Assembly: GCF_003443675.1 (NCBI RefSeq)
Contig: NZ_CP031963.1
Location: forward strand, 4,425,501-4,489,500
From: Aquimarina sp. BL5
GTDB lineage: Bacteria > Bacteroidota > Bacteroidia > Flavobacteriales > Flavobacteriaceae
Length of the DNA: 64,000 bases
Reading direction: 5' to 3'
How positions within the stretch are numbered: the first letter of the stretch is position 1; every line of letters begins with the position of its first letter. Below, in pieces: positions 33,688-50,712 of the stretch. The notes under the pieces are model-generated. The model had not been told where the DNA came from. It saw only the letters and a program-made list of their open reading frames with translations, and did no database searches. A program made the translations under genes and the position numbers.

Positions 33688-34350
33688 CTATAGAAAAGGT
33701 TCTAAAAAACCTATTAATTTTGTTCCATCCGAACTCCATCGGATTCCATGACCGCTTGGTACTCTAATCTCATATACATATTCGTGTTGATAATGATAAA
33801 AGATATTCCACCAAGTTTTATTTTCTATAATTTCTAGAATACGTTTTCGTACTTTTTCTTCTTTCTGAGTAGGGTTACCTTTTATCTCTCCCCAAAAATT
33901 ATCAGTAGATCTTCCGATATGTTTTTCCCAGGCTCTGGTAGCAATACAAATTTGATCATTAAACGGTGTAAAACAACTATCCAATAAGGTTTCTTTTAGA
34001 GGAGGAATTGCCTCCTCATTTTTTAAGGTTGCAGAGGTCCATCGTTGTCCAATCAATATCAAAAGATACTCGAACGGAGTTGTTTCTATAGTTTTTGCCC
34101 AATCTGTTACTTTTGTATTTTGATCGTTTAGTAAAGTTTCAAAATTATTGAATGCTTGTGATAGTGGAGGAGTTGTTTCTTCATCAAAATGGGGTAGTGG
34201 ATGTTTATCTGGAACTCCAAACTGATAATAGTGTTCCAGATTTTTGGAGAAAACCTGTAGATGTTCTTTCTGTAAAAAACCACCATACTGTTCCTTCCAG
34301 GAATCTGAAAGGAACTGAGTACTGTTTTGTATGGTTCGATGTAGGTTCAT
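33688..34350 (-). CDS. unknown protein, last gene of the second RtcB operon
   Basis: A protein of 220 residues, soluble, rich in Trp and His. A distinctive C-terminus reads VPSGHGIRWSSDGTKLIGFLEPFL. No signal peptide or known motif is visible. It starts one base after the 210-residue gene ends, which itself overlaps rtcB, so all three form one operon under the operator at 36411-36429. A role in RNA repair is inferred from context only. Confidence 0.75.
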   Translation of the reverse strand: MNLHRTIQNSTQFLSDSWKEQYGGFLQKEHLQVFSKNLEHYYQFGVPDKHPLPHFDEETTPPLSQAFNNFETLLNDQNTKVTDWAKTIETTPFEYLLILIGQRWTSATLKNEEAIPPLKETLLDSCFTPFNDQICIATRAWEKHIGRSTDNFWGEIKGNPTQKEEKVRKRILEIIENKTWWNIFYHYQHEYVYEIRVPSGHGIRWSSDGTKLIGFLEPFL

Positions 34351-34351
34351 T

Positions 34352-34984
34352 TTAGCTGTCTTCTCTTTTATTACTCTTCCAAAATAGAAACCATTTGTAA
34401 TTAGTTTTTTCTTTTTTTAGAAAATTAGATTGAGCTTTTTTATTTACCAACTTTTCAATTCGATTATCGGTTTTGTTCAAATCTTCTTCAAGGTTTAATA
34501 ATAGACTAATGTCAGTATCTAAATTATATGTACTGAGATATTGCTTAGCATAAGTTTTTATATTGATTATTAACTTCTCTATCGAATAAGAACCATAACC
34601 AGATAAAATCAAACCTAATTCATCAGAATAGCTATAAAATTGCATTAGAGTTTTATATTCATAATCGTATTCTACATTCAGTTCTGATATTTTGTCAACG
34701 ATATTAAATATGGATTCTGAATTATCAGTTTGAGTGATTTTTAGGCAATATTTATATAGTGAATAGGTCAAGTATTTTTTCTCTCCCCAAAGTTCATATA
34801 TTAACTTTTCTAATTCTTTCTTCCAACATTTACCTTTGTAATTAATGGTAATTACTTTGTAAATAAAGCTATTAGTGGATATTTGATCCACATAAAACTC
34901 TTGATAAATATTATTTTCGAATTCATCAAGAGTAATTGAATCTAATAGTACTTTGGATATGTTAAGTTCTAATTCTTTCATCAC
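34352..34984 (-). CDS. unknown protein, middle gene of the second RtcB operon
   Basis: A protein of 210 residues, Leu/Ile/Tyr-rich and helical, with a Lys-rich end (KKEKTNYKWFLFWKSNKRED). Its ATG overlaps the rtcB stop region by four bases, so translation should be coupled. No motif is recognised. Its base composition is lower in GC than its neighbours, which may point to recent acquisition. Confidence 0.72.
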   Translation of the reverse strand: MMKELELNISKVLLDSITLDEFENNIYQEFYVDQISTNSFIYKVITINYKGKCWKKELEKLIYELWGEKKYLTYSLYKYCLKITQTDNSESIFNIVDKISELNVEYDYEYKTLMQFYSYSDELGLILSGYGSYSIEKLIINIKTYAKQYLSTYNLDTDISLLLNLEEDLNKTDNRIEKLVNKKAQSNFLKKEKTNYKWFLFWKSNKREDS

Positions 34985-36372
34985 TTTCTATTTCTTCTCT
35001 TCACTCTCCACGGTGCATTGATCTGAAAATCACCAGCCATAATACATCCATAAGGCATTACTTCATCAATCACAGTACCTAAACCAAACTTTGACATTTG
35101 ATCTCTAACCGTAGCAGCATTTTTATAAGCACTTGGCAATTCAGAAATATCAATTTCTTTAGAGTAGAATCTAACATCTAAACCTTTAGTTTCGATGGCA
35201 AAGATTTCTTCTCTGGTTTGTCCTTCTTTATTTCTTTTATGTTGCGTTCTACTCATGTTTCTACCTGCTCCATGAGGTGCAAATCCTAAATTATTAGTAG
35301 TGGTTGCACCTTCTACGATCAATACTGGTTCTGCCATATTTAAAGGGATTAATCTTGGTCCTGTAATGTCTGGCATAAACCTAGCATCTAATGGTGTAGC
35401 ACCTTTGGCATGATAAAACAAATCACCTTCTTTAAAGACAAAATTATGCTCATTCCAGTATCTATCTTCAGCTTCGATCTCCAATGCTTTTAATGTAGCA
35501 TCGTGAATCACTTCATGATTTAGTTTTGTCCATTTTCTGATGGTTTGCAGGGCAGACCAATAGGTTTGACCTTCTTCTGTATCAAAAGGAATCCAAGCAT
35601 TTTGCTTTAGTGTATCTGGAGATAAATCTCTTCTGAATTTATCGGCGATATGCATTCCTTTTTTATACAATCTGGCACCAACGCCTCTAGATCCGTGATG
35701 TGTGATCATCATCGTATTTCCTGTTTTTGCAGAGGTACCTACAAATAAGAAATGGTTACCATCTCCTTGTGTTCCCAGATGTTCTCTGGCCATACTGATA
35801 TCTTTATCTTCTTTAAGAAAGAAATTAGATTTGAATTCAGCTAATAGTTCATCCTTTAATTTATATTGTTGTCCTCTAGGTCTTCCTCCAGGTCCAAAAT
35901 GTGTACTGGCGTGCGCTGCATCCAATACTTTTTTAGGATCTGTTTTTCCAAAATCGGTTAACATTACAGAACAACAGATATCGGCACTATGCATTCCTGG
36001 ATGGATAGCGTTTTTAGCAATCACAACACCACCTACAGGAATGGTTCCCTTAGGACCAGCAGGACAAGCATCTGGCATCACCGCACCATCTACAACCGTT
36101 GGAGTTTTCATTAATTGCTCCATAGAAGTAATCACCGAAGTAACATTATCTTCTTCTAGCTCGTTCTCCGCTTTGATATTGATTTTAAAATCTATAGGCG
36201 CTTTATGTAATTCCTGGATAGGAGGCATTTTATATTGTTCTAAATATGCATCCATTGCTTCATCAACCAATTGATGTGTATTGATATGTTCAATAGCTTC
36301 TGGAAACCATTTCCCAGATCTGAATCCTAAATCGATCAATGTTTTTCCTGTAATGTTTACTTTATTTTTCAT
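34981..36372 (-). CDS. rtcB: RNA ligase RtcB, divergent second copy
   Basis: I choose the ATG at 36372 (463 residues; MKNKVNITGKTLIDLGFRSG). A longer frame to 36477 would run into the preceding gene and through the operator. Active-site elements are present: MPDACPAGPKGTIPVGG, SADICCSVMLTD with the metal-binding Cys, GDGNHFLFVG, ITHHGSRGVG, EHNFVF, and the guanylylated His in FAPHGAGR. It is clearly different in sequence from the PrfH-linked copy and lacks a PrfH partner. It stands under an operator/promoter with the same layout as those of the nucleotidyltransferase, Y-RNA and 76-residue genes. Confidence 0.94.
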   Translation of the reverse strand: MKNKVNITGKTLIDLGFRSGKWFPEAIEHINTHQLVDEAMDAYLEQYKMPPIQELHKAPIDFKINIKAENELEEDNVTSVITSMEQLMKTPTVVDGAVMPDACPAGPKGTIPVGGVVIAKNAIHPGMHSADICCSVMLTDFGKTDPKKVLDAAHASTHFGPGGRPRGQQYKLKDELLAEFKSNFFLKEDKDISMAREHLGTQGDGNHFLFVGTSAKTGNTMMITHHGSRGVGARLYKKGMHIADKFRRDLSPDTLKQNAWIPFDTEEGQTYWSALQTIRKWTKLNHEVIHDATLKALEIEAEDRYWNEHNFVFKEGDLFYHAKGATPLDARFMPDITGPRLIPLNMAEPVLIVEGATTTNNLGFAPHGAGRNMSRTQHKRNKEGQTREEIFAIETKGLDVRFYSKEIDISELPSAYKNAATVRDQMSKFGLGTVIDEVMPYGCIMAGDFQINAPWRVKRRNRK

Positions 36373-36393
36373 GGTATTATCTAATTGATGAAG

Positions 36394-49537: not shown

Positions 49538-49628
49538 TGTAGTATTTTTTAGTTGTTAATTAAATGATACACAATGCAAAAATTTGCAAGGCGTATTCGA
49601 AATCTTTATTTGTTTATTATTTATAGTA

Positions 49629-49664
49629 CAAATATCTGTCTGCAGTACGCATTCTTTTTGCGTA
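49629..49664 (-). promoter_or_regulatory. WYL-type operator between the 76-residue gene and the WYL regulator
   Basis: On the minus strand: TACGCAAAAAGAATGCGTA (49646-49664), 13 bases, then TTTG (49629-49632). The operator ends 37 bases before the WYL gene ATG on the other strand, so it can serve both the small gene and autoregulation. It is the most symmetrical of the four. Confidence 0.85.
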
Positions 49665-49701
49665 GTTAAAATTATTTATTACTTTTTACAAAATTTTTAA
49701 A

Positions 49702-50712
49702 ATGGCTTCTAATAAAAATGCATTAATCCGATATAAGACAATTGATCAATGTCTGCGTAATAAGTTTAAGCAGTGGGTTTTAGACGATCTTATTGAAGCA
49801 TGTTCTGATGCATTATATGAATATGAAGGAAAAGATGTATATGTAAGTAAAAGAACTGTGCAGTTGGACATACAGATGATGCGTAGTGATAAATTAGGGT
49901 ATAATGCACCCATAGAAGTGTATCAGCGTAAATATTATCGATATGCAGAAGAGGATTACAGCATTATGAATATCCCTGTCACGGATCATGATATTAAGAT
50001 TATGAATGAATCTATACAGATATTACGCCAGTTTAAAGATTTTTCGCTGTTTAAAGAAATGAATGGAGTCATAGAACGATTAGAAGATTCTGTATATGCA
50101 ACTCAGAAAGATAACATCCCAATTATTCATTTAGAAAAAAATGAACAACTAAAGGGGTTAGAGCATATCGATAGATTGTATCATGCCATACAAAACAAAC
50201 AGGTATTGAAGATTGCGTACAAGTCTTTTAAGGCAAAGGACGAAACTGAAATTAATATCCATCCGCAGTTATTGAAAGAGTTTAATAACCGATGGTTTTT
50301 ATTAGCCATAGGCCATAAACGAAAGATGTTGACCACTTTTGCTTTAGATAGAATCGAAAGTATTCATAATTCTGATGAAGATATTACGTATATCGATCAG
50401 CATGTTGATGGTGATGTATATTATAAAGATGTGATTGGTGTTACGGTTTCGGAAAATGTAGTTCCCGAACTGATAAAATTTAGAATAGATAATCGTAATG
50501 CTCCGTATGTGGTGACAAAACCATTTCATAACTCCCAAGAAATTTTATCGCAAGATGAGAGAGGGGCAACTTTTAGTATTAGAGTGCAAATGAATTTTGA
50601 GTTAGAGCGATTAATTTTAGGCTTTGGAGATAGTATCGAGGTATTACAGCCAGAACGATTGCGTGACAGGATTCATACCAAGTTAAAACGGGCATTAGGA
50701 AGGTATGAATAG
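49702..50712 (+). CDS. WYL-domain transcriptional regulator
   Basis: A protein of 336 residues. The N-terminal 65 residues form a winged helix-turn-helix with a typical ahead-of-wing segment (VSKRTVQLDIQMMRSD). The WYL domain lies at about 155-240 (HAIQNKQVLKIAYKSF, then NRWFLLAIGHKRKML and TFALDRIESI), followed by the WCX C-terminal extension (KLKRALGRYE at the end). WYL proteins are known to control defence and DNA-damage genes by binding a nucleic-acid-related ligand. The operator just upstream recurs at three RNA-repair promoters in this window, so this is very likely their regulator. Confidence 0.92.
   Translation: MASNKNALIRYKTIDQCLRNKFKQWVLDDLIEACSDALYEYEGKDVYVSKRTVQLDIQMMRSDKLGYNAPIEVYQRKYYRYAEEDYSIMNIPVTDHDIKIMNESIQILRQFKDFSLFKEMNGVIERLEDSVYATQKDNIPIIHLEKNEQLKGLEHIDRLYHAIQNKQVLKIAYKSFKAKDETEINIHPQLLKEFNNRWFLLAIGHKRKMLTTFALDRIESIHNSDEDITYIDQHVDGDVYYKDVIGVTVSENVVPELIKFRIDNRNAPYVVTKPFHNSQEILSQDERGATFSIRVQMNFELERLILGFGDSIEVLQPERLRDRIHTKLKRALGRYE

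Follow-up and report, generated by a model that had tools for sequence, protein, structure and literature searches.

Does one DNA site control the RNA ligase, the nucleotidyltransferases, the cluster of tRNA-like RNAs and the WYL-domain protein that lie in scattered units over 17 kb of the Aquimarina sp. BL5 genome? The units occupy positions 33,688 to 50,712 of a 64,000-nucleotide stretch of contig NZ_CP031963.1 (4,425,501 to 4,489,500), hereafter the window, to whose numbering all coordinates refer unless a locus handle is given. A preliminary description had proposed a WYL-controlled RNA-repair regulon. Profile searches recovered the parts that it named where it had placed them, namely RtcB, a pair of RlaP nucleotidyltransferases, a tRNA-like RNA and a protein with WYL and WCX domains; its observation is confirmed and its interpretation as a regulon is supported. 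We consider it probable that an RNA-repair regulon extends across the Bacteroidota, in which one palindrome serves RNA-ligase, end-repair, Ro60 and RING-TerD genes and a nearby WYL protein switches them on upon the appearance of broken RNA.

A palindromic operator with fixed promoter spacing

The operator is the palindrome TRCGCAA-N5-TTGCGYA, followed exactly 13 nucleotides further on the minus strand by TTTG[C/T] in all four copies of the window. These copies are found before RtcB (36411..36429, TTTG at 36394-36397), before the RlaP genes (38414..38432, TTTG at 38397-38400), before the RNA array (44530..44548, TTTG at 44513-44516) and between the WYL gene and a 76-residue open reading frame (ORF) towards which the last copy is directed (49646..49664, TTTG at 49629-49632). 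The first three have no mismatch and the fourth has one. At three mismatches or fewer the window holds eight matches, compared with 2.2 on average and 6 at most over 100 shuffles. The source genome is a single contig of 6.01 Mb, all of which was covered by the genome-wide search, and the palindrome with 13-nucleotide spacing and TTTG occurs at five places with at most one mismatch and at six more with two. All five lie inside 54 kb, each 13 nucleotides from its TTTG. The fifth, 3.7 kb ahead of the window, is directed towards the genes of a DUF6331 protein and a Band-7 protein and towards YrlA-like RNAs, which score 46 and 32 bits as YrlA, under the gathering score of 69. The claim that one operator type links the genes across 17 kb stands for the four sites of the window; the fifth lies outside, and some genes inside have no site, the sigma-factor, two-component and 821-residue protein genes within the 17 kb showing no operator of their own.

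TTTG, at its fixed spacing of 13-14 nucleotides from the palindrome, is likely the -7 element of Bacteroidota promoters. Conservation was followed in the best 80 of 399 relatives of the 747-residue RING-TerD protein encoded next to the array; many are close Flavobacterium, so that counts among them are not independent. A strict site, that is, the operator without mismatch plus TTTG at the set spacing, is present in 72 of these 80 loci, and in 75 when one mismatch is allowed. Grouped by TTTG spacing, the strict matches in the 80 loci number 179 at 13-14 nucleotides, 18 at 8-9, 2 at 16-17, 56 at 18-19 and 10 at 20-21. Seventeen genomes with the RING gene carry one to five strict sites each, 54 in total against a single control match.

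A WYL protein that accompanies the site

The WYL-WCX protein (49702..50712, plus strand; Pfam WYL 53.1 bits against a cut-off of 21.8, WCX 52.3 against 23.9) has an N-terminal winged helix, as read by eye, and is the likely regulator acting on the operator, its binding being predicted from co-occurrence and closeness. Of 395 Bacteroidota genomes drawn evenly, 73 carry the strict site (139 sites); a reversed-pattern control gave about 28 matches by our own count. A WYL homologue is encoded in 61 of these genomes at E<=1e-40 and in 44 at E<=1e-90, the latter cut-off, of our choosing, defining the close homologues. The strict site is present in 37 of the 44 genomes with a close homologue and in 36 of the 351 others (Fisher p 1e-24), and in the WYL genomes the distance from site to WYL gene is at most 10 kb for 63 of 93 sites, where 0.39 would be expected, and at most 600 nucleotides for 15. 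Four of the seven WYL genomes that lack a strict site (G421, G482, G538 and G589) have a one-mismatch site about 1 kb or less from the WYL gene. The WYL gene keeps a site nearby despite changed gene order, be it that of the 76-residue ORF (the window), of RtcB (L036, L093) or of the array (L092, L096, L107). Within the DNA compared at the 80 loci, WYL was found in 57, RtcB in 39 and RlaP in 20.

Given that the site overlies the expected -33 region, we lean slightly towards an activator rather than a repressor. By eye, the site covers no recognisable -33 element, which fits an activator, and PafBC, the sole solved relative found by sequence, is an activator. The same regulon with the WYL protein as a repressor, occupying the site until released by a ligand, is possible, if distinctly less probable: a position over the -33 region would suit it as well, a WYL protein represses a CRISPR-Cas system in Synechocystis (PMC4012209), and TrcR, which in Anabaena regulates rtcB and a slipin, is a repressor (PMC10272220).

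Regulon targets in other Bacteroidota

The preliminary description had named conservation of the operators before the same genes in relatives as a check on its model. Besides the conservation at the RING-TerD loci given above, sites precede RtcB, RlaP, Ro60, Band-7, RNA ligase and Hen1 genes in other Bacteroidota. Ro60 (TROVE) is encoded in 27 of the 395 genomes, and in ten of twelve Ro60 loci fetched a site lies 31-80 nucleotides before the Ro60 start, eight being exact and two having one mismatch; TTTG follows at the same spacing in eight and ATTG in two. Twenty regions around sites of the 395-genome draw were hand-picked rather than drawn at random, and in 16 of them a gene of RNA repair or of the Band-7 type was recognised no further than 3.6 kb from the site. 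These genes encode RtcB (either type), RlaP, Band-7, a T4-type RNA ligase (PF09511) and Hen1 (PF22032, PF12623), once with a Pnkp-like neighbour; no recognised member was found within that distance in the other four (L285, L288, L300 and L303). In G398, three genes of a single genome, those of Ro60, RtcB and a 76-residue ORF, are preceded by sites. Among 248 sites from overlapping sources, some counted twice, the first known target is RING-TerD for 119, RtcB2-type for 40, RtcB for 10, Band-7 for 6, WYL for 5 and others for 8, with no known target within reach of 60.

Proteins of 444-597 residues without a Pfam match are encoded behind the operator in four regions (L285 2153-3937, L288 1162-2496, L292 915-2708 and L293 4505-6262) and are candidates for further repair genes. 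Also, tRNA gene arrays adjoin regulon units, with 14 tRNAs in the genome of the window (L121 12361-14847) and others upstream of the RNA array in L032, L033, L034, L041 and L097; by analogy with the Anabaena trn operon, these are possibly spare tRNAs.

A tandem array of Y-like and tRNA-like RNAs

The operator at 44530 precedes four RNA units on the minus strand. Two of them, unit 1 (44407..44476; 71.3 bits, -14.7 kcal/mol) and unit 4 (44120..44185; 63.1 bits), are matched by R1, an RNA model built from 39 Y-like units that had been preselected for pairing and that include both. Unit 2 (44279..44405) is a tRNA-like RNA with acceptor, D- and T-arms (Rfam tRNA 62.8 bits, gathering score 29) and without a normal anticodon loop, a 54-nucleotide insert holding the circularly permuted Y-like unit in its place. 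Unit 3 (44190..44274), read from the sequence, encloses a T-arm-like hairpin, and its helix is present in the minimum free energy (MFE) fold. Default ARAGORN found no tRNA in the window, and its intron mode reported one in 78 of 81 sequences, a count to which ordinary tRNA genes and calls with very long 'introns' contribute. The array does not score as YrlA, with 17.4 bits (44187-44274, unit 3) against the gathering score of 69. Single-sequence folds are mixed, with z values of -4.05, -2.07, -1.80 and -0.67 for units 1 to 4 and an incomplete Y helix in the MFE fold of the tRNA-like unit, so that the case for an RNA array rests on comparison.

The plain unit follows the pattern xxGGU-CAA-N8-UACUUC...N8'-AAUU-ACCxx. 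Its motif occurs 364 times in the last 600 nucleotides before the RING-TerD genes, compared with 2.5 in mononucleotide shuffles, and of the exact motif, 347 copies lie in the 1.3 kb upstream and seven elsewhere in 1.59 Mb. Two to nine units are present in 79 of the 80 loci; the remaining locus (L037) starts only within the gene. The N8' strand followed by xATT is found in 303 of 386 unselected units, compared with 7.7% in a control in which unlike stems were swapped in. In the 39 preselected units, pairing reaches 98.4% in the upper helix, all 8 pairs of which show two-sided changes, and 75.3% in the lower; it falls from 86.9% to 41-47% when the partner is slid along. Unit 3 of the five-unit loci is weaker, with a downstream partner strand in 19 of 50. 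The partner strand of unit 2 lies upstream in 43 of these 50 loci and downstream in 3, and unit 2 is for this reason regarded as circularly permuted. A whole-array RNAalifold run over 50 loci gave a muddled consensus, since it mixed plain and permuted units. The conserved array of structured RNAs next to the RING-TerD gene is real, and possibly represents a new RNA class.

The RING-TerD protein and its remote relatives

Behind the array lies the gene of a 747-residue protein (41855..44098, minus strand) with RING, helical (about residues 160-485) and TerD parts, the predicted partner of the RNAs. It had been described as a zinc-ribbon/TerD-like protein; a TerD fold near the C-terminus is indeed predicted (structure model with a predicted local distance difference test score (pLDDT) of 81, from 39 sequences), and the RING match falls just below the Pfam cut-off (24.8 against 27 bits). 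An earlier model (pLDDT 66, 14 close sequences) was not used for the fold search. Homology to Ro60 by sequence was unsupported, with no TROVE match among 39 RING-TerD members.

R1 also finds units upstream of RING-TerD genes that had no part in its training, with 56.7 bits on a Hymenobacter plasmid (57% identity), 44.0 and 40.0 in Segatella, 39.0 in Prevotella and 38.4, 32.7 and 30.3 in L126; L127 has matches of 53.6, 52.7, 45.1 and 38.7 bits, counted irrespective of their placement relative to the gene. In the Rhodococcus phage Weasels2, whose protein is 24% identical, the array stands behind the RING-TerD gene (R1 25.7, 24.8 and 13.4 bits). A hairpin scan of 68 loci had a high background (21 on the plus and 13 on the minus strand) and was used for Weasels2 alone, where it showed four in a row; the fourth unit, seen by script, holds T-arm, acceptor and D-arm in permuted order. 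Weasels2 also carries RtcB and tRNAs. Across 59 viral contigs R1 gave eight matches at E<=5, the best of 29.9 bits, all on the strand of the gene, and arrays of the variant CUUCCUUC were seen by eye before the gene in L144, L150, L147, L162 and L163 and after it in L146. A viral search with the phage protein as sole query returned the same phage only. R1 had no match in the Variovorax, Streptomyces and Deinococcus relatives of the RING-TerD protein and weak ones only in Niallia (best E 0.67); matches in L121 (18.9 bits, E 0.07), at 2799-2824 of the window (E 1.4) and in L134 (17972-18006, E 1.8) were set aside as chance-level.

Two side observations concern these relatives. The viral contig of L144 holds a GOLLD RNA (7408-7874, 184.7 bits) together with the RING-TerD gene, the Y-like array and tRNAs, and next to the Variovorax relative (L130 4909-10112) a gene annotated rtcR runs in the divergent direction, so that in Proteobacteria this module may be controlled by RtcR.

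The array sits between promoter and gene on the same strand in Bacteroidota, as would a cis-acting leader that controls the RING-TerD mRNA; the array would then not be a set of acting RNAs. This is unlikely, given that the array follows the gene in Weasels2, that L146 also has copies behind the gene, that one unit is a near-complete tRNA and that loci carry two to nine units. We lean, with some reserve, towards a second, Ro60-independent type of Y ribonucleoprotein (RNP), composed of a RING-helical-TerD protein and a tandem set of UACUUC hairpin RNAs. A tRNA is built into one of these RNAs, and both circular permutations occur, with ends in the hairpin stem in the actinophage and at the tRNA acceptor in Bacteroidota. 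The particle would form an arm of the phylum-wide Bacteroidota WYL regulon that pools RtcB, RlaP, T4-type ligase, Hen1/Pnkp, Ro60 and Band-7, and large tRNA-rich phages would have their own copy.

Evidence against a single WYL regulon

Several observations weigh against these interpretations. A strict site also occurs in 36 of the 351 genomes that have no close WYL homologue (46 sites in all), and many of these look like background. Three WYL genomes (G444, G459 and G562) have no site even at one mismatch in a search of the 13-nucleotide spacing alone; in all three the WYL and Ro60 genes are neighbours. TTTG peaks not only at the expected distance but also at 19 nucleotides (57 of 442) and 5-8 nucleotides behind the palindrome, and the strict matches at 18-19 nucleotides amount to 56 against 179 at 13-14; the former peak may be a conserved flank read in the opposite direction. 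The RING module is patchy, being found in 6 of 397 genomes of the family, and an R1 match in L226 (16.4 bits, E 0.05) lies about 470 nucleotides behind a Ro60 gene on the same strand, so that the array is perhaps not exclusive to RING-TerD. Finally, the TTTG beside the WYL gene of the window is directed away from it. The claim that the operator links the WYL gene holds in so far as a site lies beside it; this site (49646) reads into the 76-residue ORF, and autoregulation is unsupported in the window because its TTTG does not point to WYL.

The direction of this TTTG, together with sites that read into the WYL gene in two other genomes (L247, L252), would suit a site that belongs to another regulator, with WYL as a mere neighbour or target. 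We judge this improbable, in view of the genome-wide co-occurrence and of the closeness of site and WYL gene through changing gene orders.

The 76-residue ORF (49307..49537, minus strand), which has its own operator, had been listed as a small unknown protein and is better read, from its sequence, as a fragment of a Ro60 copy whose promoter was kept. Residues 1-61 match positions 1-61 of a Ro60 profile made from the twelve Ro60 loci (E 5.4e-5, first of 822 window segments, the next at 0.89), and blastp aligns it to Ro60 with up to 43% identity over 37 residues. It is present in the window, L030 and L239, the genome of the last having a full Ro60 as well. A functional protein was unsupported, with 15 non-synonymous and 4 synonymous codon changes between the window and L030. 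That the array is itself left over from Y RNAs whose Ro60 was lost is most improbable: the genome lacks TROVE but keeps the Ro60-like N-terminal fragment with its operator, and one unit has a weak YrlA score (17.4 bits), yet in remote relatives the array goes with the RING-TerD gene, the twelve Ro60 loci (under 1 kb of flank) hold only two weak R1 matches (16.4 and 13.7 bits), and compensating changes show that the helices are kept.

Other genes of the window

The RtcB RNA ligase (minus strand; PF01139 132.5 bits, cut-off 27) is listed as an ORF to 36477 and probably starts at the internal ATG at 36372 (34981..36372), since operator and TTTG fall inside the longer ORF. A 220-residue protein (33688..34350), encoded in the same direction on the minus strand, has no match in Pfam or NCBIfam, a homologue in 8 of the 80 relatives and no assigned function; it is possibly co-transcribed. 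Three PF10127 matches in the window exceed the cut-off of 23 (98.3, 134.7 and 71.4 bits). That of 98.3 bits is the RlaP gene at 36437..37549 (minus strand), next to which a second copy (37641-38377, minus strand) is broken by a frame change into an N-terminal piece (38057..38377, PF10127 positions 7-107) and a C-terminal piece in another frame (37641..38018, positions 127-248); in the close relative L030 this copy is a single open frame. Between RlaP and the array, an 821-residue protein (38446-40911) matches no family and is absent from the loci of all 80 relatives. Outside the 17 kb lies a second RtcB gene, of the canonical type, with that of a PrfH-like release factor behind it (23027-25170); it has no operator at two mismatches or fewer. 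RtcB with PrfH is a ribosome-repair pair known from E. coli (PMC9223846). Genome-wide, no match was obtained for RtcA (PF01137, for which a control search was positive in 5 of 14 known genomes), RtcR (PF06956) or Ro60/TROVE.

Proposed mechanism and its implications

RtcB ligates RNA ends that bear a 3'-phosphate or a cyclic phosphate to ends with a 5'-OH. In the mechanism that we propose, the WYL protein would bind the palindrome and its WYL domain would sense RNA ends or fragments, WYL domains being predicted to bind nucleotides or nucleic-acid fragments (PMC4012209). When broken RNA appears, the WYL protein would switch the regulon on, with RtcB resealing cleaved tRNA or rRNA and RlaP putting back lost nucleotides, the role predicted for it (PMC7824862). 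The RING-TerD protein may bind the Y-like units at the CAA/AAUU internal loop and the UACUUC strand and form with them a Y-RNP-like particle, whose tRNA module would dock or decoy tRNA-acting enzymes. Given that the genome is without Ro60, it can be speculated that this particle takes its place.

For bacteria without RtcR, the shared site, which unites unrelated repair systems, offers a testable regulator of RNA repair. The signature of site and TTTG finds further members by sequence alone, and the uncharacterised genes behind it are candidates. With the array comes a new RNA family, present in hosts as well as phages and likely to have a protein partner; it bears on the roles of Y RNAs and tRNA mimics. 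If the proposal is true, a common response to broken RNA would exist across the phylum.

Comparison with known systems

The RING-TerD protein resembles the NF041916 family (MXAN_6230/SCO0854 RING proteins) over residues 10-701 (E 7e-37), but with 127 bits it remains under the cut-off of 600 and represents a sister branch. The open-licence literature yielded no function for this family and no text naming SCO0854, MXAN_6230 or MXAN_6422, nor any on a WYL-run RNA-repair regulon or on this RNA array. The array shares with YrlA (RF02553) a hairpin stem combined with permuted tRNA parts, and in Weasels2 the T-arm, acceptor and D-arm stand in the hairpin loop; the units described here, however, score 17-26 bits against the gathering score of 69, and their internal loop and UACUUC strand differ. 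A Band-7/SPFH module with tRNA-like RNA and RlaP was reportedly described by Burroughs and Aravind in 2016, and the fifth site, reading into a Band-7 gene with YrlA/tRNA-like RNAs, recalls it; neither this operator nor the RING-TerD array is known to be described there, though parts of the system may be mentioned.

The known parallels, RtcR/Ro60 and TrcR, are without a WYL regulator in the passages of their sources that were available. In Anabaena, TrcR is a single regulator of rtcB, a slipin of Band-7 type and a tRNA array, with no RtcR (PMC10272220, in part). The likeness lies in the combination of rtcB, a Band-7-type gene and a tRNA array without RtcR, whereas TrcR is a ribbon-helix-helix repressor that uses another DNA motif. 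In the RtcR-controlled rsr-yrlBA-rtcBA operon of Salmonella, a single regulator governs RtcB, a Y-type RNA that mimics tRNA, and a protein that serves as RNA scaffold (PMC7790460). The system described here likewise combines RtcB with such an RNA and a predicted scaffold protein under what is probably one regulator; unlike that operon, it occurs in a genome without RtcR, RtcA and Ro60, its scaffold is the RING-TerD protein, its targets are scattered units, and its regulator is likely the WYL protein.

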